Source: Coniochaeta sp. PMI_546
Taxonomy: Eukaryota > Ascomycota > Sordariomycetes > Coniochaetales > Coniochaetaceae
DNA: 64,000 bases
Reading direction: 5' to 3'
NCBI GenBank assembly: GCA_021432605.1
Contig: MU271153.1
Span: 558,001-622,000 of the forward strand
Position numbers and translations under genes: made by a program. Under the pieces are notes generated by a model that saw nothing but the letters and a program-made list of their open reading frames with translations, was not told where the DNA came from and did no database searches. Each line of letters starts with the position of its first letter. Position 1 is the stretch's first letter. Below, piece by piece: positions 27,535 through 62,555 of the stretch.

Positions 27535-29120
27535 TCATAACGATGGACCGTTCCATGTGTCTCGTCTTTGCCGGCCAAACCATGCTTGCTTATGGGGAAA
27601 GGAGATCTCCTTCTCTCGAGAGAAACCTGCGAATTGGAGGTGTTGTATGAACCTGCGACAACGGTTAGAAATCCAAAGCCATATCTGCTACGAGGGTGAA
27701 AGTCGGTCTCTCACCTCTTGTTATCCACCCGCGGCTCGACACAGATGCTCATGGTCCTGTAGTCGGAGCAGAATGACCAATGCACCAAGCTCGTCAACCA
27801 AGCCTGAACCCTGCCACGTGCCCAGTCCTCGCCGATGAAGACGTGAAGCCCTCTGTCCCAGTCTGCGGCATCGGAGCCGCCGATATACCTACCCAGAGGG
27901 TCTTCCTTCACCCAGTATATCTCAAAGTATCCAAACGGAACACCATCCCACGTGCCGATCACGGGAAAACTGTGCTTGGAGGCAAGGGCTTTGGTCAAGA
28001 AGTCGGGCACGAACCCACCCCAGAAGGCCGACACTCGTGGGTTGGCCAACCATTTCTGCAGCAGTGCTGTGTCACTAAGCGTCGTTAGGTCAAATTGTGA
28101 AGGCGGCTTAGGACCGACGGGTCCCATATGCGGCACTGGTTTGGGTGATAGCGACGCAACACGGAAGGACAAATATTGGCCAACCGACGGGATGAAGCGC
28201 GTGTAGAATATCTCCCCCATGCGTGGTGGCTTTGGTCTGATAGGGTGGCGGATGTCGCCCGTCATGGTGAACTCGGCCGGTGCCGGGGGGTAGTAAGTCG
28301 GCAAGTGGCTCGAGCTGTAGAAGGGGCCAATAGGGAATGATGGCGTGCTAGTGAGCGTGATAGGAGGAGGAGCACCAGGCAGATCCGCATAGTGGTTCAG
28401 CGACGGGGACAAATGCGGCCGGTTAGATGTCTCGTTGATTGTAGGCGACCCAGGACGACTGCTGGTCGGGGAGCCAGGGTGTGAGTGCCCGCCTTTGGGG
28501 TTTGGTTGCAGCGTGAAGAGAAAGAGCCGTCCTGGTATCTGCCAGAACATCTTGCGCGACACAAACATGCGGGACCACCCCTCGCTGTCATCCATGACAA
28601 CGCCCACGGCAGAGTCGAGCGTGGCGATCAAGCCCATACGCTCTAGTTTTGGGATCAAGTTCCTGCCCCTCAGAACACCGTCGCGCTTTATGTTGATCCT
28701 CCACTCGCCTCGCGGCTTGCCGGACTCGGGTGTGTTTTTCGATGCGTCGGTATGAAGAACGGACGGTGGTTCGGGTTGGTGGAAGTACCAGTAAAGCGTG
28801 ACCCACAGCATCATGGCAATCTGGCGGGTTGGGCTCGCGGCAGGCTTGAAGTCGTTGCTCGACGGGTTCGAGATGGAGGAGATGAATAGCTTGTCGTTCT
28901 GTAGGGTTGGGCGGGTGAAGGAGTGAACGTGTCGCTTCTCGGGATCGGTCCCGTCTCCATTGTCGTCGGCATCGTCTTCTGTGTGCAGGACCACGCTCCA
29001 GCCGATAGGGAAGGCGTTGGTGTGCGTGCTCAGCTCGTGGGATTTGAAGAAGAGGCCGGCGAAAACGGGGGTCACGGTGAAGTTTTGGCCATCCGGGAGG
29101 TGGATGATCTGAGGCGCCAT
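27535..29120 (-). CDS. sidF: N5-hydroxyornithine transacylase, SidF type (siderophore biosynthesis)
   Basis: Two exons (29120-27715 and 27652-27535, intron 62 nt) encode 507 residues. The protein matches fungal siderophore acyltransferases of the GNAT/AlcB type, which move an acyl group (anhydromevalonyl in SidF) from CoA to N5-hydroxyornithine. Visible family blocks are LPDGQNFTVTPVFAGLFFKS at the start, FISSISNPSSNDFKP, ASPTRQIAMMLWVTLYWYFH, then the catalytic part FPVIGTWDGVPFGYFEIYWV and VFIGEDWARGRVQAWLTSL. The second exon restores the conserved ending FPHKQAWFGRQRR. The ATG at 29120 is chosen because the open frame upstream has only a GTG. SidL, the acetyl-transferring relative, remains possible. 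No siderophore NRPS, hydroxylase or siderophore transporter lies next to it in the window. Confidence 0.8.
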
Positions 29121-32100
29121 GGCTCGCTTCTCCCTCACGTCACGGCCTCCTCTGATACCGCCGTGTCTGCTGCTAGGTTGCCGCTGATTGAAATGGTGCG
29201 TTTGTTTGCAAGAAGTCGGACTTCTCGTCCCTGAACAGCTTGAACGCGGGGTAAACTTTTGTTTACCTTTCGGGATCGCACCTTCAAGACTTCGAACTCA
29301 TGTGGTCCTCCAAGATCTGCTCTTGGAGTTGGAATACCGTTAAAGAAAGAAGCTAGGTCGCCGGCTTTGGCCCAACATCCGAAAGCACTAGATCTTGTTA
29401 TTGTCGTCTCGCTCACGCTACATCAAGCAAGAGAGGCATGTGCCCCAACAGCAAACATGTCCTGATCATGACGATCATCCCACAATGGCATAGTGTGGGG
29501 TAATTGAGGCTGATAAGGTAGCTGACCAAGACTGGGGTCTGATTGGTTGTGGAATGATGCAGCAGAGCCACTATTGGTCGAACCATTCTTACCTGGGCTG
29601 TCTTAGAATGCCTTGAAGAGGTACATGTTTTCAGGCTTATTTTGTACCATCCCATATGTATCTGCTCAACGAAAGTCTTCGGCCCAAAAGGACCGGCACT
29701 CTTAATATTGCTCACCTACCCTATACACGACTGCTCCCTACCTCTGCCGACTTTGTGTTAACCTAGGTATGTGCGCATGCTTCCATATGTTTCAACAGCT
29801 CAGCTTGCCATCTCTCTCATTTCTAGGTTAGTCAGGATCTCTGCCAAGATGCCTTCCAGCTAGCATTGTAATGCTCACTAAATGCATTTTTGTTGTAGAC
29901 ATGCATCCGTTATCCTGACTCTGCTCAGGTTCGAGCAGCTTGGTCACTGTGGACCAAACGTTTCGTCTACAGATTCAAAAACAGAACAGTATTAATCCGC
30001 AAGTGGTTATATATCTGGTTATACCATATGTGGCTTGCGAACTCGCTGCCATGCTCAAGACTCAGATCAGGGCTATTCTGAACACACGATTCAACATCCA
30101 CCCGTCATCAAAGGGGTCTCACTTCAGCTCCTTCTGCTTGTTGCCTTCCTCAACATCGTACCCTTCTATACTGTCGACCACTGGGTGTTTAAATGTCACT
30201 GATGACGTTCTTTTTGCAAGTGACTGGTGCTCTTTCGATGCGGACGTCATCGCTGACAAATGACACAACACATATTCAGGTATAAGCCATTCTGCATGCT
30301 GTATCTAGATCACATATAGCACCAAAAGCAATGCATTCCGGTTTTCGAAAGGGTATTCGCGTATTTTTAACATATCTCTGCTCCCCACGACAGCCATGTC
30401 AGCCCTAACGGTCGGTCTAGTCTTGGCCTGATGCGGCAATCGTTCCGCTTAGAGCTTATAGCCGAGATCTGACATTTACCTGCGCGAACGGCCCCCCCTC
30501 TGTGGGTGAGCACGCGGGTGTGGAATGGGTGGTTCCCGCTTATGTCCTGTGGGATGGCATAGAGGTCGGCGATCACTCTTGCCCATCGTTCACCCAGCCT
30601 TGTACAGTACATGGAGTTGGGGCCCTCTCTGTGGCATTGGTCCGGGAGCTGGGGGTCGATCTTTCCTTGCCGCTTCCTTTCCGACTTACGTCGCATGGAT
30701 GTTTCCCCTACAGCCCTGATTTGCACGACGCAGTATCTGGCACGTGTTTGGTCCCTGGACGGACGATTACTTGAGGAAAGTGGCTACAGCACCGTTTGTT
30801 GTTTGGCAACCTAGCGAGATACTTTGCCCAAGGTCACCGCGACCGCGACTTTGCCCGCCGCGGCCGCGCTCGGTACACCCTTACCACCAGATCAGCCAGC
30901 TCCTAGGGCATGCTCGTGCTAAGATATGACCCGTCGGGAGGAGTTCCCCGGTGGTATGCTAGCCCCTGTCCTCTTATAGCCTCGATCGTAGCTTTCTGCG
31001 CCACATATGGAACCGCCACATCAGGCCTGGTAAGATGAATGCTGTTTTCTTCCGTAGCGTCTGTGAGATCGGTCAGAGTGTAGAACAAGCCTAGTTGAAG
31101 GTGCCACACAAGAAGCTTCAACGTCCCCCTTCTGCTCATCTTCCGACATCTTCAGGTAGAAGACGGTTTCGATGTCCCAGTCGTCAGCATTGGACTTCAA
31201 CTGCTTGCATCGGTTTCAATCGCAGCCCCGTCAGCAGACACCCAGAAATCATGACAAGGAACAAACTTTCAACCTTGAAGGAACGCCAGCCAACCGAATC
31301 CGCTGGCTCGCAGCCCCCAACTGTTCATGCCCTTGGCCAACATGAATCTGTCTTTGCACACCAGCTGTTTCATGCAACCTCTGGGTCCGGGGCTTCTGCT
31401 TCCGGCAGCTGACACCCAACCCACTGAAAGCTTCATCGGTGCCGGCATCCAACACCACTGGAGGAGTCAGTAACCGCCAAGAACTCGTGCCCGTCATCCG
31501 CCCCTTTGTGAGCGGTGCTGCGACCCTGCTACACGTCCGCTTCAGGTGGATGAGAGGGTATCAGTCGCGCCTAGGACGGCGGCTCCGGATCAATGACGGC
31601 AAGGCCCTCGCATCGACAAAAAACTCTGCAAAGTGTGCTTGTGCCACTGTATGCCGGCTCCCGTAGGACAACACAGTTCTCCTGTCTGAGACATTGAGTG
31701 ATTGCTGATGCCAAAGACGCAGTCGTCGTTCGCCGAGATGGCCCTGACCGGAGAATCTTGTAAGAACTCAATTAGATGCCAAGCAAATCGTTTCTCTGCC
31801 TTCGCACTGCTCACACGCGGCATTTATATCTAAGCACAGATTCCCACCTCTCTGGTGGCGCTATTTCTCTGGAGCGTAATACACGGGCGTAATTGGTCAT
31901 CTTCGACTCAGCAACGACTACGAGCCTTTCCACATACGAGCAGGCCTACCCATACCCAGCTTACCCTGTACGACGCTGATGTACGACTGTCAATAGTTGT
32001 TTGATCGTGCGGCTCGTACGTGATTGCCGGCGGCGTATGTGCATTCGGCCGCAACGAGTCAGACGACTTCGGTGCCGAAGCCCGGATGGTGCAACCCCGG

Positions 32101-36213: not shown

Positions 36214-38367
36214 TTATCGAGAAATAATGGGCGGTTCCTCCTCAATCATGCAGGCGTTTTCTAGCATGTTGGTCCACTTTCCACTGGTACCAGCGTGGCT
36301 GTGCTTCAGGTGTTGTCGGAAATGATCAGCCCTGTAAAATTTCTTGCTCGCGTTGCATTCCCTGAACTTGTGCACATCCTGCAAGTGGTGAATGCGTAAT
36401 TCCCAGTCCGCATCGGTGATGAATCTCCCGCTGGCCGCCGTCGAATACCCCGTGCGAGTAAACTCCTCGCCACAGTATCCACAGATATCGGCTTCGCCAG
36501 GGCAAGTGGTGCTGTCGTGGAATGCGCGCTCGTAGCCCGTCAGTGCAGAACATGACCAGCTGTGGCGGCGGACATGTAGCGAGTTCTGGTGTCGTTCGGC
36601 CTCGTTCTTGTTCTTGAAGCGATTGCCGCAGAATGAGCACTCGTATTGCTTCTCCGCTTCGTGTGCACTACGCGAAAGTCAGAAACGCGCTTATGTAATA
36701 GCACTTTCAACTCGAGGCTTGATGGCGCCGTCTCATAGCCGGCTGAGTCTGGAGGGCCAAGAGCCATCAGGAGATAGCAGCTGTGCGTAAAGGAGAACAT
36801 TTCTACATACCTCAGTTCCTCCGGGCTATCGAACTTCTTCGGTTTCTTGGGGCAGCATTCGCACATGAAAAACCCTTGCATTTTCGCAGCAAGTATACTC
36901 CCATTGCTTTTCGGCGGTTCCCCATGTTTTCGCGGCGATGCAAGCGGTCGACTTTCTTGCGTAACAGTTGAAAGTCCGGTCAATGTCCTCTGATGGGGCT
37001 GTTGCACTGCCACCCCTCTGCTGTTGGATGATCGACGAGCTGACCCAACAAGAGAGAGTGAAGCCGTGTAAGAACTTTCGTAGCCAGCGGTATCGGCTGG
37101 CGATATGGGAGAAGGTCCATTCGGCGATATCCGACCAAAGGAGCCCATGCTCGTCAAGCTGCTGGCGCTAGTCATACTCGCGTAGCTGGTGGCGCTGCGA
37201 CCGGCAGACGAAATGCTTGACACGGAGCTCTGCGGGATTGGACTGAGTCTGGGAGTTGGAGATCCTCGAAACATTCCATTGATATCCCGCCTTCGAAACA
37301 TGTCGCTAGCCAGAGGTACCACGTTGTCTTCTGGGGGGGAAGAGGCACGACGCTTTTGACCTCGGTCCTTCTCTCTGTCTCGGGAAGCGTCGTCAATGTT
37401 CAACATGTGTAGTCGCGATGTCTCCTCCATCGGGAAGTCTATATCATCGTCCCGCATCTCGTTACTTCCCTGCGTAGATACCGTCGCATCGTCCGCTATC
37501 GATCCGCTGTTCCTCCGCCTTGTCCGTGGATATGGAGACTGATCAAAGTCGCCGGTATCCGCGGAGAGTGGTGATCTATAATCACCCATTTGTGAAGGAC
37601 CATATCTGAACGGGTTGGAGCGAGGAGATACTGCGGATACCAGAGGCGTGTGGTTATATCGATGAGGCGAATCGAGCATAGGCTGGTGTGATCTCGTTCT
37701 GTCTGGCAGGGAGAGGAGCTTCGGAAGCTGCATCGGAGTCGGACGTGTCGAACTGTCCATTGCAGAGGAGCTGAGGCCAGACCACTGAGTCGGTGAGCGA
37801 TTGTCCAACGGCCTCCTGGCGTTGAGCTTGTCCAACATGGAGGTGTCGTAGGCGTCGGCGCGTGGTCGGAACTGGTAGGAGTTGTGCATGCTGAAGTGCG
37901 GCGAGTTGAGCGTTCTGAGCGGACAAGAACAGTCAGTAAAATAAATCAGGAAAAGCGATCTAGGTCTGAAGACGTAGCGATGAGGTTGCGCACGAGATTC
38001 CACGTCCAGAAATGGAAGGAACCAACCTTGCCGAGCCTATGCTATGATATCCTTCGTCAAGGTCGGGCCTGTAGGAGCGATCTCTCGATTTAAATGTTTC
38101 CCTATCCTCAGGAAAGAAGCCATCGTCGTGATCCCTAGAACGAGGGTCAAACACAGTAGGACCGTCGACGGGGACGAACCGGGGCGGAGGAAGCGGAGGC
38201 GGCGGTTCATCATAGTTGCCGGCGTTGGGTATGGACATGGCCATTGATGAGGACGCGGACGGTGGTGATGGTCTCGAACCCTTGGATCGCGAAAAGCTGT
38301 CCTCGGTAGTTATGGAAGGCAGGCCGCTGCTGAGGCCTCGGGCCGCGTATCTCGTCTCCATAGTCAT
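36214..38367 (-). CDS. C2H2 zinc-finger protein with long Ser/Pro-rich N-terminus
   Basis: Three exons (38367-38027, 37914-36811, 36667-36214) encode 632 residues. The first 400 residues are disordered, Ser/Pro/Arg-rich, with a polyproline run (PPPPLPPPR) and many SP dipeptides that look like phosphorylation sites. The C-terminal third carries the zinc fingers: FMCECCPKKPKKFDSPEEL, then a classical finger YECSFCGNRF with H-x-H end (HQNSLH) rebuilt after intron 2, a cysteine-rich section WSCSALTGYERAFHDSTTC and ICGYCGEEF, and a last finger FRECNASKKF ending HLKHSH. This domain order is conserved in ascomycetes, but I do not know a named function; DNA binding in the nucleus is likely. The intron junctions restore AR-TLNS and EEL-SAHEAE. 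Confidence 0.87.
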
Positions 38368-55421: not shown

Positions 55422-55680
55422 CGGCTCATTCTCGACTCCGCCTTACCTCTGCCCTCATCAGCCTTAATCAGCCTACATCATCCTTGGTGCTTACTAGTTA
55501 GCTAAGCAGTTAAACTTGCTCGTACTTGCGATATCGGTACTAGCTAAAGAATAGGCTAGTAGTAGGGGATAAATACAGAGCCCAAACCAGCTCGCACTGC
55601 TCGAATCGCTCCAATCTGATAGAATACGCGAGTAGATAGAAAAGAGTATAAGAAATTCATACAAAGCCTAAAAAAAAATA

Positions 55681-55779
55681 CGATAGCAACAGGATTCGAA
55701 CCTGTGCGGCCGAAGCCATTAGCTTTCCGAAGCCATTAGCGGTTCGAGGCTAACCCATTAACCACTCTGGCATGCTACC
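55681..55779 (-). tRNA. tRNA-Ser(CGA) with 18-nt intron, copy 1
   Basis: Reads UCG codons. The minus strand folds into a type II tRNA: acceptor GGTAGCA/TGCTATC, D-arm from CCAGAGTGG, anticodon stem TTAGC/GCTAA, loop CTCGAAA after splicing, variable arm hairpin GGC-TTCG-GCC, T-arm ACAGG/CCTGT with loop TTCGAAT, discriminator G. The intron sits at the canonical site, one base 3' of the anticodon: CCGCTAATGGCTTCGGAA. Intron TTCG can pair with the anticodon CGAA, as in normal pre-tRNAs. A run of nine Ts follows, a Pol III terminator. The intron contains a 14-nt copy of the adjacent exon (GCTAATGGCTTCGG). Confidence 0.85.
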
Positions 55780-55922
55780 TTTCTTAATCAAGGGACCGGC
55801 GCCTAAAGCTAAACTACAGATGTAGGTGCACACAAATTACCGGTCATGTGATCTGATAGAATGTGCGAGTAGATAGAAAAGAGTATAAGAAATAAATATA
55901 TAGCTTAAAAAAAAAAAGAAGA

Positions 55923-56021
55923 CGATAGCAACAGGATTCGAACCTGTGCGGCCGAAGCCATTAGCTTTCCGAAGCCATTAACGGTTCGAGGCTAACCCAT
56001 TAACCACTCTGGCATGCTACC
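55923..56021 (-). tRNA. tRNA-Ser(CGA) with 18-nt intron, copy 2
   Basis: The mature sequence is identical to copy 1 as far as I can align it, and it is followed by a T-run terminator. The only difference inside the gene is one C-to-T change in the intron (CCGTTAATGG). That leaves the 14-nt exon copy imperfect by one base and fits selection on the mature tRNA but not on the intron. Confidence 0.85.
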
Positions 56022-56576
56022 TTGCTTGATTGAGAGACCCTAGCCTAAAGTTAAACTACATATGTCGTAACAAAACGTAATCAACCATACATTAGATGGC
56101 CGTGCGCCCTAAGCTTTTCCCGCCACCGCACCCAGGCCCTATTATGTGGTACAGTAGGTCCGCGTCAAACAGCAAAATAATAGCGGGCCTTGACGCCAGC
56201 TGACAGCCCCTTCTGATGTAGTCTTAGATTCTCAGCTACTTACCATAGGCGTTTCGCGGTTTTGCCATGTATCTTTCTACCCCACCTAAGCCACCCCCCC
56301 GCTCTAACCAATGAAAACACACACACAAAACCGCTACTTACTGGTCTGAGTCCAATTTGCATATCTCGGACAGGTTTCTCACCAGCTTCTCACTAGGTAT
56401 TCAATAGTCGTTACTTAAAACCAGTTGTTTTGAACTTAACTTTGCCAATTGGTTTAAACCAGTATTACACTTACCTTATACTTACCTTATACGTAGTATT
56501 GCACCTGCCTCGCGCGTAGTATTACACCCAGTCTCGCGCCTGCCTTGCTCGCAGTATTGCACCTGTCACTCTAGTC
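56022..56576. other. AT-rich spacer
   Basis: Upstream flank of tRNA-Ser copy 2, a pyrimidine/CA-rich patch near 56.28-56.33 kb and the degenerate tandem repeat listed separately. No gene. Confidence 0.4.
56462..56575. repeat. Degenerate tandem repeat (GTAGTATTGCACCTGCC-type units)
   Basis: Three to four diverged units built from GTAGTATT(G/A)CACC followed by TGCCT and CGCGC, just upstream of the zinc-knuckle reading frame. Unit length is about 30 bp. Confidence 0.6.
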
Positions 56577-59504: not shown

Positions 59505-61746
59505 ATGTTTAGGGTCAACTTCACTTTTCTGCTCTGCAGTGCCTTCCTCTTGATTTCGACTGTTCTCTCGTTTCCAACTGATCAGCGGGACAATGTTCTT
59601 ATCGAACGTCAGAGTACCAACAGGCTGGTGTTCTGCCACTTCATGGTAGGATTTACCCCGAGGGGGACACTGGTCTGCTTCATCCTTGTGGTTAACTGAT
59701 GGCTAACCCACTTGTGACGTGAAGATTGGAATTGTAGGCGAACGGACGGGACCACAGGACTTCGACGATGATATGAAGCGTGCAAAATCACTTGGCATTG
59801 ACGCATTTGCTCTCAATATCGGGGTTGATCCTTACACAGATACCCAGCTTGGCTACGCCTATCAGTCGGCAGCTAATAACGGCATGAAGGTCTTCATCTC
59901 TTTTGACTTCAACTGGTATCACACTTCCGATGCTGTCGCGGTAGGCCAAAAAGTTGCCCAGTACGCTAAGCTGCCGGCTCAATTGTATGTCGACAACAAG
60001 GTCTTTGCATCATCTTTTGCCGGAGATGGGGTCGATGTGGCGGCCATTCGCAATGCCGCAGGAGTTCAGATCTTTTGGGCGCCCAACTTTCATCCTGAGT
60101 ACGACACGGACTTCAATACCATTGATGGGGCTCTAAACTGGATGGTAAGACATGCGGGGACTGATTCGTGCTATTGCTGGTCTAACATGGAATCGCAATA
60201 GGCATGGCCTAATAACGGGAACAACAAAGCTCCAACTCCAGGGCACAACGTCACCGTGGAAGCGGGTGACAGTGCCTATGTGAATGCGCTTAAGGGAAAA
60301 GCATATATTGCTCGTAAGTCCAAAACAACGAGTTTGTACTATTAATGGCCTTACTGACTATCACATAGCTGTATCTGCATGGTTCAGCACACACTTCGGC
60401 CCGGTACGTTCGTCACTTGGCCATCCGTTTTGTGATGCCATAAATACCAAATCGTCCGTAGCTAACATCGATCTAGGAAGTTCCATACAGTAAGAACTGG
60501 GTTTTCCCGTCTGATTTATTGTGGTATGACCGTTGGAACGAAGTCCTCAGTCTCGGACCCCGGTTTCTGGAGATCATCACCTGGAACGACTATGGCGAAT
60601 CCCACTATATCGGCCCTCTCCATTCTCCCCATTTTGATGATGGTAACTCCAAGTGGACGAATGACATGTAAGAAGTCCTGATAGCCACATACAATGTTTT
60701 TGTGCTATCGAGCATTGACATATATCAGGCCCCACGGCGGCTGGCTCGATATGGCCAAGCCGTTTATCTCTGCCTTCCATGCAGGGGCAACTTCAGCAAA
60801 CAGCTATGTCACATCCGACCAACTTATTTACTGGTACAGACCGAACCCGCGGAGCCTCAACTGTGATGCCACGGATACCACAATGGTGCAGGCGGATAAC
60901 TCATCCGGCAACTACTTCATGGGTCGGCCCAATGGCTGGGAAGATATGCAGGACTCCGTATTTGTGGTCGCTATGCTTACCCAGCCGGGGACCGTGACTG
61001 TTGCCTCGGGTAACAATATTCAATCCTTCAACGCTCCCGCAGGTATCTCGTCTTATACCGTCGATATGGGGCTCGGGAATCAACAGTTCTGGCTTACACG
61101 CAACGGGCAGGCTGTCCTCAGTGCTGTGAGCCTGAAGGACATCACCAACGTCTGCCCCTGCGGCATATACAACTTCAATGCTTATGTCGGAACCGTCCCG
61201 GATGCGGCCCCTGACCCCCTGCAGCACGACGGCCTCGCCTCTCTCACAGCGGGCCTCCACGTGAGTACCTGCAGTGCAACGCCGTCGCTAGCAACCACAA
61301 CGATCAAGCCCACCGCAGCCCCTACTAGTGGAGGCGCTGGGCCGACAACAACGGCTAGTTCTTCGACAACTACAGGATCAAGTTCAACTGTGACGTCGAG
61401 CAGCACCACATCCAGCAAAGCAACGACGCCAACATCACCCACTCGCACGACAACGTCCTCAAGCACTATCACCACCAGTACCACCTCCGTACCTCCTACA
61501 GGAACAGTGTGCACTGCCGGAACCGGCCCGGGCAATTACATTGGCCTCTGTAACTTCTGCTGCCAATATGGCTACTGCCCACCGGGACCATGCACATGTA
61601 CCGCGACTGGTCAACAGATCCCGCCTCCACCGCAGAACAGCCCAGCTGGACGCCCCTTGCCTGGCGAGGACGATAGCTACCTCGGCCTCTGCAGTTATGC
61701 GTGCAGCCATGGATACTGTCCGCCAACTGCTTGTCAGCACGGCTAG
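59505..61746 (+). CDS. Secreted GH71 alpha-1,3-glucanase (mutanase) with Cys-rich C-terminus
   Basis: Six exons: 59505-59645, 59725-60144, 60202-60313, 60369-60403, 60477-60667 and 60729-61746, 638 residues. The signal peptide (MFRVNFTFLLCSAFLL) is followed by a GH71 catalytic domain, which hydrolyses alpha-1,3-glucan of fungal walls. Family blocks: RLVFCHFMIGIVG, IDAFALNIGVDPYTDTQLGY, FISFDFNWYH, IFWAPNFHPEYD, AYIAPVSAWFSTHFGP over two introns, LEIITWNDYGESHYIGP, and HGGWLDMAKPFISAF. Beta-sandwich-like sequence follows, then a Ser/Thr linker and two copies of a small Cys-rich motif (YIGLCNFCCQYGYCPPGPC and YLGLCSYACSHGYCPPTAC) like those in CBM24-bearing mutanases, probably binding alpha-1,3-glucan. 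An upstream in-frame ATG (59436) would bury the signal peptide. The fourth exon is only 35 nt. Confidence 0.93.
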
Positions 61747-62190
61747 GCATATACTGTGGGCGCAATACAGCAAGTCGCCGCGGGATTTTAAGCGCTCAGT
61801 CATCGATAACCTGGCAACCCATAAGACTGGGTCGCCACTAACGAACTCTATTGTTGTTGAACCTGTTATTGCTCTTGGTGTTGTTCATCAGTTGCGTCTT
61901 CCCTCCTCGTTTTACTAGTGATGACTTGCAGCCGTCGCTTCAGTCCTGACATTCGTGGCACCTGATCCTTCTTGTAAATATATCTATTGGTGTCAACAAG
62001 GTGAATTTTTTGGACTGTCATTACTGTTATATATAGCTTATCAACTACTAAATATTGTTTCTGCATTGTCCCATGACCTTTTAGGTTCGGAACGTGATGT
62101 CCGCATCCCTTAGTGGAGTCGAGAGTGTCTGGCGCTAAGCGCAGATAATGTAATGCAAAATAAGACATCCGGTATTCATCAAACCAATAA
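61747..62190. other. 3' flank of GH71 gene and upstream flank of tRNA-Cys
   Basis: About 440 bp; AT-rich, no coding signal. Confidence 0.4.
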
Positions 62191-62277
62191 GGATCGATAG
62201 CTCAGCGGTAGAGCGTGGGATTGCAGTTAGCTGCAACAAATATCCTAAGGTCGCGTGTTCAATCCACGCTCGGTCCT
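62191..62277 (+). tRNA. tRNA-Cys(GCA) with 15-nt intron
   Basis: Folds well: acceptor GGATCGA/TCGGTCC, D-arm GCTC-AGCGGTA-GAGC, anticodon stem TGGGA/TCCTA, loop TTGCAGA after removal of a 15-nt intron (TTAGCTGCAACAAAT) at the canonical site, variable loop AGGTC, T-arm GCGTG/CACGC with loop TTCAATC, discriminator T. Anticodon GCA reads UGU/UGC. The intron TTGCA-complementary stretch (TGCAA) can pair with the anticodon loop. A run of Ts follows directly as a Pol III terminator. Confidence 0.9.
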
Positions 62278-62555
62278 TTTTGTCATTCTTGCTTCCATTT
62301 TATTACTTACAATGGCATTTGTCGTGTGTCTCTTTCTATTCATATATGTGACATTTGCGATATGTGTGCAATATCTACCTTGCATTTTGCTTGATAATCG
62401 GAAGAACTAACTGTATGTGACGACAACTCGCTTATACCACCGATAAACATTTCACAATTCACCTCTAATGCGCAGCTACAAACTTCCGGCCTCTTTAGTC
62501 ACTGCTTCGATTGAAGATATACCCCGTACACTCTTTCCATACGCTATCTGACTCT
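62278..62555. other. Spacer between tRNA-Cys and BYS1-like gene
   Basis: Nothing recognised; should contain the 3' untranslated region of the BYS1-like gene. Confidence 0.4.

Follow-up and report, generated by a model that had tools for sequence, protein, structure and literature searches.

A tRNA intron of canonical appearance that repeats its own tRNA in tandem, most likely gained in an intronless tRNA-Ser(CGA) gene

Introduction

How does an intron come to occupy the fixed site of a eukaryotic tRNA gene? The gain of such introns has been stated as an open question (PMC4090602), and a pair of tRNA genes in the fungus Coniochaeta sp. PMI_546 bears on it, as the locus shows the likely raw material of one intron. 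Intronless versions of the same gene in the same genome allow comparison, which makes the question of intron birth testable. The genes lie in a stretch of 64,000 nt (contig MU271153.1, positions 558,001 to 622,000) that we call the window. An earlier note on this DNA had claimed that two genes for tRNA-Ser(CGA) each contain an 18-nt intron with a 14-nt copy of the neighboring exon, and had proposed that the intron either arose by local duplication or allows the pre-tRNA to adopt two folds. From the sequence of the locus and its relatives, we consider it most likely that an intronless gene gained this canonical-looking intron, which repeats part of the tRNA sequence in tandem.

Results

Two tRNA-Ser(CGA) genes have an intron at the canonical position

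Both genes are on the minus strand and exceeded the gathering threshold of the Rfam tRNA family (47.7 and 47.1 bits). Intron-aware ARAGORN called both as Ser(cga) with an 18-nt intron, in agreement with the identity that the earlier note had given them. Neither was among the calls that ARAGORN made with the bacterial code and no intron option. Serine tRNAs are marked by G73 and a long variable arm, and the sequence and pairing of both genes show these features together with a paired acceptor stem. In both, the intron is inserted between positions 37 and 38. Splicing at this position would restore the mature anticodon loop CTCGAAA; the placement by ARAGORN is shift-equivalent. The features of the locus, in window coordinates, are as follows.

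55681..55779, minus strand: tRNA-Ser(CGA) gene copy 1, with an 18-nt intron (Rfam RF00005, 47.7 bits; ARAGORN intron mode, cga i(36,18))
55923..56021, minus strand: tRNA-Ser(CGA) gene copy 2, with an 18-nt intron (Rfam, 47.1 bits; ARAGORN)
55725..55742, minus strand: copy 1 intron, CCGCTAATGGCTTCGGAA, at canonical position 37/38; splicing there would give CTCGAAA, the loop that the intronless Ser(CGA) genes have
55967..55984, minus strand: copy 2 intron, CCGTTAATGGCTTCGGAA, with one C-to-T difference from copy 1
55727..55740, minus strand: 14-nt repeat GCTAATGGCTTCGG inside the copy 1 intron (exact match, C11:613727-613740)
55710..55723, minus strand: exonic 14-nt original in copy 1, formed by the 3' anticodon strand and most of the variable arm (exact match, C11:613710-613723)
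55952..55965, minus strand: exonic 14-nt original in copy 2 (exact match, C11:613952-613965)
55727..55731, minus strand: TTCGG in the copy 1 intron, predicted to pair with UCGAA of the anticodon loop (constrained pre-tRNA fold and minimum-energy fold of the arm)
55670..55678, minus strand: T run 3' of copy 1, resembling an RNA polymerase III terminator (read from the sequence)
55907..55917, minus strand: T run 3' of copy 2, resembling an RNA polymerase III terminator (read from the sequence)
55614..56065, minus strand: segmental duplication containing both genes, with a spacing of about 242 bp (direct repeats D1, 154 nt, 92%, and D2, 65 nt, 89%; alignment)

The intron is a copy of the adjoining exon

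The intron of copy 1 contains the 14-mer GCTAATGGCTTCGG, as do the exons of both copies; the intron of copy 2 matches it at 13 of 14 positions, with one base changed. The exact-match coordinates place the exonic original in the 3' anticodon strand and most of the variable arm. Both of these observations are as the earlier note had described them. The intron and exon form a tandem repeat that is exact over 14 nt at a lag of 17, with a single A-to-CC departure from strict duplication that lies at the 5' edge of the intron and is common to both copies. When the sequence was compared with itself, matches peaked at this lag (20/30 positions), with at most 9/30 at the other lags between 12 and 23.

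None of 200,000 shuffles of the intron reached a 14-nt match between intron and exon (maximum 12), and with TTCGG held fixed one random intron in 200,000 did so. Internal direct repeats in the two genes extend to 14 and 12 nt. In the other 60 of the 62 distinct tRNA genes or gene-like rows sampled from the same genome, no such repeat exceeds 8 nt; the sample was drawn from the 63 of 897 RNA-family candidates that were scored and from some of the B-box pattern matches listed (C1 to C4). Absence of long repeats in these 60 is in keeping with the earlier note's view that tRNA introns are normally unrelated to the neighboring exons. That view does not extend to pairing, since in 16 of the 45 introned rows of the genome the intron contains an exact complement of at least 4 nt to the anticodon loop, a count made with no chance control.

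Across the 33.5-Mb genome there are six exact occurrences of the 14-mer, and five of these fall in Ser(CGA) genes. A foreign source of the intron was rejected: the single occurrence elsewhere is at C16:435990, where ARAGORN finds no tRNA. Local duplication is well supported as the origin by the intronless Ser(CGA) genes elsewhere in the genome that contain the 14-mer and by the 17-nt period of the repeat, and this upholds the first of the two proposals in the earlier note. On this sequence evidence it is close to certain that the intron is a tandem copy of the adjoining exon and that duplication was its source.

Most related serine genes in the genome have no intron

An A-box pattern search that allowed up to three mismatches found 31 places in the genome. 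Twelve of these have zero or one mismatch, and all are genes or gene fragments for serine tRNAs with the AGA/CGA type of body: six intronless Ser(AGA) genes, two intact intronless Ser(CGA) genes, two degenerate intronless copies of the CGA type and the two introned genes. Ten of the 12 therefore have no intron, and the two genes in the window are the only ones that do. Places with two mismatches are five introned Ser(GCT) genes, and among those of the remaining 14 whose sequences were inspected (not all of them) there was no serine gene of the AGA/CGA type. The two intact intronless genes are as follows.

C7:375383-375463: intact intronless Ser(CGA), 14-mer present
C18:329588-329668: intact intronless Ser(CGA), 14-mer present

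Removing the 18 nt from the introned gene gives anticodon and variable arms exactly as in the C7 gene, and the two are identical over positions 8-56. They differ at 9 of 81 positions; position 57 is one of these, and the other eight lie in the acceptor stem. The acceptor-stem differences from the intronless genes are four two-sided pair changes that keep the pairing. In the C18 gene position 53, in the variable arm but outside the 14-mer, differs as well. In comparisons with the spliced body, the intronless Ser(CGA) genes scored 0.89 and 0.88, two Ser(AGA) genes 0.84 and 0.77, and a spliced Ser(TGA) gene 0.68. Introned and intronless Ser(CGA) genes of this genome share a body type.

We also considered whether the intronless genes could have lost an intron by deletion between the repeats. 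Reasoning from the sequence, recombination within the 14-mer would leave CTCGAACC, not CTCGAAA, and we rejected this route. Exact-pattern scans of viral and genome contig collections for a comparison locus in other fungi gave no matches.

The two degenerate copies of the Ser(CGA) type (rows L035 and L063) differ in what they have lost. The one at C8:259716-259760 has no intron and is missing part of the T arm; the one at C5:2373625 is shorter beside the variable arm and, by eye, has one mismatched acceptor pair.

The introned gene was duplicated and both copies look maintained

Between copy 1 and copy 2 there are differences at 0 of 81 exon positions, 1 of 18 intron positions and 17 of 109 flanking positions. 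Flank sites were taken from the blocks that still align without gaps, so that 17/109 is a low estimate of flank divergence. Exons differ from flanks (Fisher p = 5e-5); the comparison of intron with flanks gave p = 0.47, with 18 intron sites and little power. The intron and its A-to-CC departure are in both copies, and the segmental duplication would be younger than the intron. Judged from the exon-flank contrast and from the four paired acceptor changes, both genes look maintained. Identity of the exons could instead reflect gene conversion between the copies.

When the 143 bases between the two genes were used as a query, they matched only themselves and the equivalent stretch beside copy 1. 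Beside the tRNA pair, window positions 56485-56565 contain three copies of a 23-nt repeat, two of which are 70% and 83% like the reference.

Constrained folds favor a structure that could be spliced

When all four stems (acceptor, D, T and anticodon) were imposed, UCGAA of the anticodon loop paired with TTCGG of the intron in the best fold, and AAA was left bulged beside the anticodon stem. In copy 1 this AAA consists of two intron bases and base 38. Folding the arm by itself gave the same pairing and the same AAA bulge. C32 and a G at position -3 are present, and the energy model pairs U33, not C32, with this G. Among the 45 introned rows of the genome, 7 of which are not equivalent to a canonical position, 20 have a Watson-Crick 32:-3 pair. 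Since 152 of 2000 shuffled introns gave arm energies no higher than the observed one, the pairing energy is weak evidence by itself. When folded free of constraints, neither the precursors nor the spliced form took a cloverleaf as the minimum-energy structure.

The second proposal of the earlier note was that the 5' anticodon strand can pair with either the intron copy or the exon. In our constrained models such an alternative is physically possible, and it lies above the splicing fold by 1.2 kcal/mol in copy 1, which is within model error, by 3.5 kcal/mol in copy 2 and by 2.4 kcal/mol in a model 17-nt duplication. The check by folding thus favors the splicing fold, with a gap in copy 1 of just 1.2 kcal/mol, and gives no support for use of the second fold. 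In both copies the alternative has an 8-nt anticodon loop. When the acceptor, D and T stems alone were imposed, the splicing fold remained the best for copies 1 and 2; for the model 17-nt precursor a third fold was better by 0.1 kcal/mol. That the CC change evolved as a means of disfavoring the alternative was not supported, as the gap is -2.4 kcal/mol in the model duplication versus -1.2 kcal/mol in copy 1.

The TTCGG part of the intron copy fits the role of a complement to the anticodon loop. A role for the TTCG motif is also consistent with the two Ser(TGA) genes that we read, where a 13-nt intron has TTCG near its 3' end. The genome has matches to the endonuclease family PF01974 (two) and the ligase family PF09511 (one). 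From these models, we infer that the 18-nt intron would be spliced out as a canonical tRNA intron, and it is plausible that the duplication was cleavable from birth.

A tandem duplication in an intronless gene probably made the intron

Considering these results together, a tandem duplication of about 17 nt in an intronless tRNA-Ser(CGA) gene probably made the intron, and the whole gene was probably copied later. The duplicated unit would be AAAGCTAATGGCTTCGG, which runs from the end of the anticodon loop through the 3' anticodon strand and takes in most of the variable arm, and the new intron would fall at the canonical 37/38 site. Strict duplication would yield a 17-nt intron; the 18 nt observed would need a change of A to CC at the 5' edge of the intron. 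The extra copy would read as an intron because TTCGG derived from the variable loop would pair with the anticodon loop and be followed by a 3-nt AAA bulge next to an intact anticodon stem, an arrangement of the kind recognized by the tRNA splicing endonuclease of eukaryotes. The whole gene would then have been duplicated 242 bp away. On this account the change was a gain, the genes would be transcribed and spliced, and the events would have occurred in the order given here.

We simulated tandem duplications in 17 rows that ARAGORN called intronless, using an ad hoc score. For the two intact intronless Ser(CGA) genes, 12 and 11 of 135 outcomes had at least four pairs between loop and intron. 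The other 15 rows, of which L120 and L130 are probably misread introned genes, gave 0-6 of 135. The top-scoring duplication in the two Ser(CGA) genes was longer than the one observed.

Other tRNA genes and features near the locus

Several other tRNA families in this genome have introned and intronless relatives. A tRNA-Cys(GCA) gene at window positions 62190-62278 (plus strand) has a 15-nt intron whose CTGCAA is the full complement of the loop TTGCAG; if its intron option is off, ARAGORN calls this gene Ala(TGC). An intronless Cys gene is found at C13:601419 and scored 0.85 against the spliced body of the gene in the window. Genes for tRNA-Val(TAC) occur with and without a 9-nt intron (L051, C7:779314-779395, and L001, C18:330288-330360). 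The spliced body scored 0.99 against the intronless gene, making this another mixed isodecoder, apparently of one origin. Three Thr(CGT) genes (L050, L124 and L129) have introns of 9-13 nt and bodies that scored 0.93-0.96 against an intronless Thr(AGT) gene (L132). In L124 the start of the intron, TCCGTA, follows the loop CTCGTA, perhaps as a small local repeat or by chance. Open reading frames elsewhere in the window match glycosyl hydrolase family 71 (60694-61746, plus strand), a fungal C2H2 zinc finger (36540-38003, minus strand) and a GNAT acetyltransferase (27711-29138, minus strand). Matches such as the first two point to a fungus in general; a 5.8S rRNA search, in which 39 of 957 candidates were scored, gave no match.

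Discussion

The CC at the 5' edge is not explained by strict duplication and could be the remnant of an older short intron with its own TTCG that was largely replaced by exon sequence, through recombination or template switching at the TTCGG that it shared with the variable arm. The 13-nt introns with TTCG near the 3' end in the two Ser(TGA) genes are in keeping with such an ancestor, as is the intron in tRNA-Ser(CGA) of S. cerevisiae that is described in PMC4090602. This history nevertheless needs an additional intron and two steps, 10 of the 12 AGA/CGA-type genes or fragments are intronless, and the spliced body is closer to the intronless Ser(CGA) genes (0.89 and 0.88) than to spliced Ser(TGA) (0.68). 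We consider remodeling unlikely, and from the paralogues and parsimony we infer that the intron was gained instead. A further possibility is coincidence combined with constraint: the intron needs TTCGG to pair with the anticodon, the variable loop contains it anyway and the rest of the match is accidental. The TTCG near the 3' end of the Ser(TGA) introns is in its favor. Holding TTCGG fixed left a single 14-nt match in 200,000 random introns, and none of the other 60 sampled genes had a repeat above 8 nt, so that this explanation is barely conceivable.

The remaining explanations concern what the duplication did to the gene. One is that it occurred inside a gene copy and made a pseudogene that was copied afterwards. 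In its favor, there are degenerate relatives at C8:259716 (part of the T arm missing) and C5:2373625, and ARAGORN does not call the two genes without its intron option. This is highly improbable given exons that are identical at 81/81 positions while the flanks differ at 17/109, four acceptor changes that are paired, T runs 3' of both genes and a canonical intron site that restores the mature loop. Another reading is that the repeat has been kept to let the 5' anticodon strand pair with either copy, so that the pre-tRNA has one fold that is spliced and another that stays unspliced and extends the variable arm, perhaps as a control on maturation. The gap of 1.2 kcal/mol in copy 1 would allow this. 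By contrast, the C-to-T change in copy 2 widens the gap to 3.5 kcal/mol, the anticodon loop of the alternative is 8 nt in both copies, and the intron, with 1 change in 18 sites, shows no special conservation relative to the flanks (p = 0.47, with little power). We regard a functional switch as very unlikely.

Gain by duplication in an intronless Ser(CGA) gene, which we favor, raises the question of whether the route is general. It is conceivable, if doubtful, that tRNA introns are self-templated, with a duplication that places a complement of the anticodon loop behind the loop making an intron that can be spliced at once; this could be a general route to the patchy introns of fungi. At birth such a precursor might be doubly safe, as the 5' anticodon strand could pair with either copy. 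One fold would be spliced to a normal tRNA, and the other would already present a 7-nt anticodon loop and have just a longer variable arm. The later change of A to CC, and then of C to T in copy 2, would commit the gene to splicing.

In position and structure the introns resemble canonical 37/38 nuclear tRNA introns, which are processed by the Sen/TSEN endonuclease and a Trl1-type ligase. In the human TSEN-pre-tRNA structure, C32 pairs with a G of the intron, and a 3-nt bulge of flipped-out bases comes next (PMC10539383). The genes studied here have the same insertion position, C32 and a G at -3 (which the energy model pairs with U33 rather than C32) and, in constrained models, a helix between loop and intron with a 3-nt 3' bulge. 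At 18 nt the introns are within the 9-47 nt range of canonically placed introns in this genome (one 4-nt misparse left out), and both the endonuclease and ligase families are present.

The signals for spliceosomal splicing differ from the structural pairing of a tRNA precursor. Spliceosomal introns have been gained by tandem duplication in a potato RdRp gene (PMC4974935) and in Drosophila (PMC2891723), according to these reports. In both settings tandem duplication supplies an extra copy that becomes the intron; those introns depend on other machinery and signals and the one described here on pairing within the tRNA precursor. Archaeal tRNA introns are reported to have been gained by insertion of a mobile element in Caldiarchaeum (PMC3293823) and by transposition in Thermoproteales (told in PMC4090602). 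Here too an intron enters an existing tRNA gene; in the archaeal cases its sequence is foreign or transposed, not a local copy of the exon. A 2025 survey reports direct repeats near the borders of 213 of 213 introns examined, one of which is a nuclear archaeal-type intron of a fungus (PMC11782384). Among the matches listed in our literature search, outside which subscription papers mostly fall, none described a nuclear tRNA intron derived from the exon beside it.

Another comparison is with the yeast introns discussed by Yoshihisa in 2014 (PMC4090602), who described likely recent gains, asked how these could come about and proposed extension of cleaved tRNA halves. Suspected examples are tRNA-Ala(UGC) of L. 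thermotolerans and tRNA-Gly(UCC) of K. lactis. As in those cases, the intron described here is found in an otherwise intronless type of tRNA. The mechanism was left open for the yeast gains, whereas the Coniochaeta intron reveals its own source.
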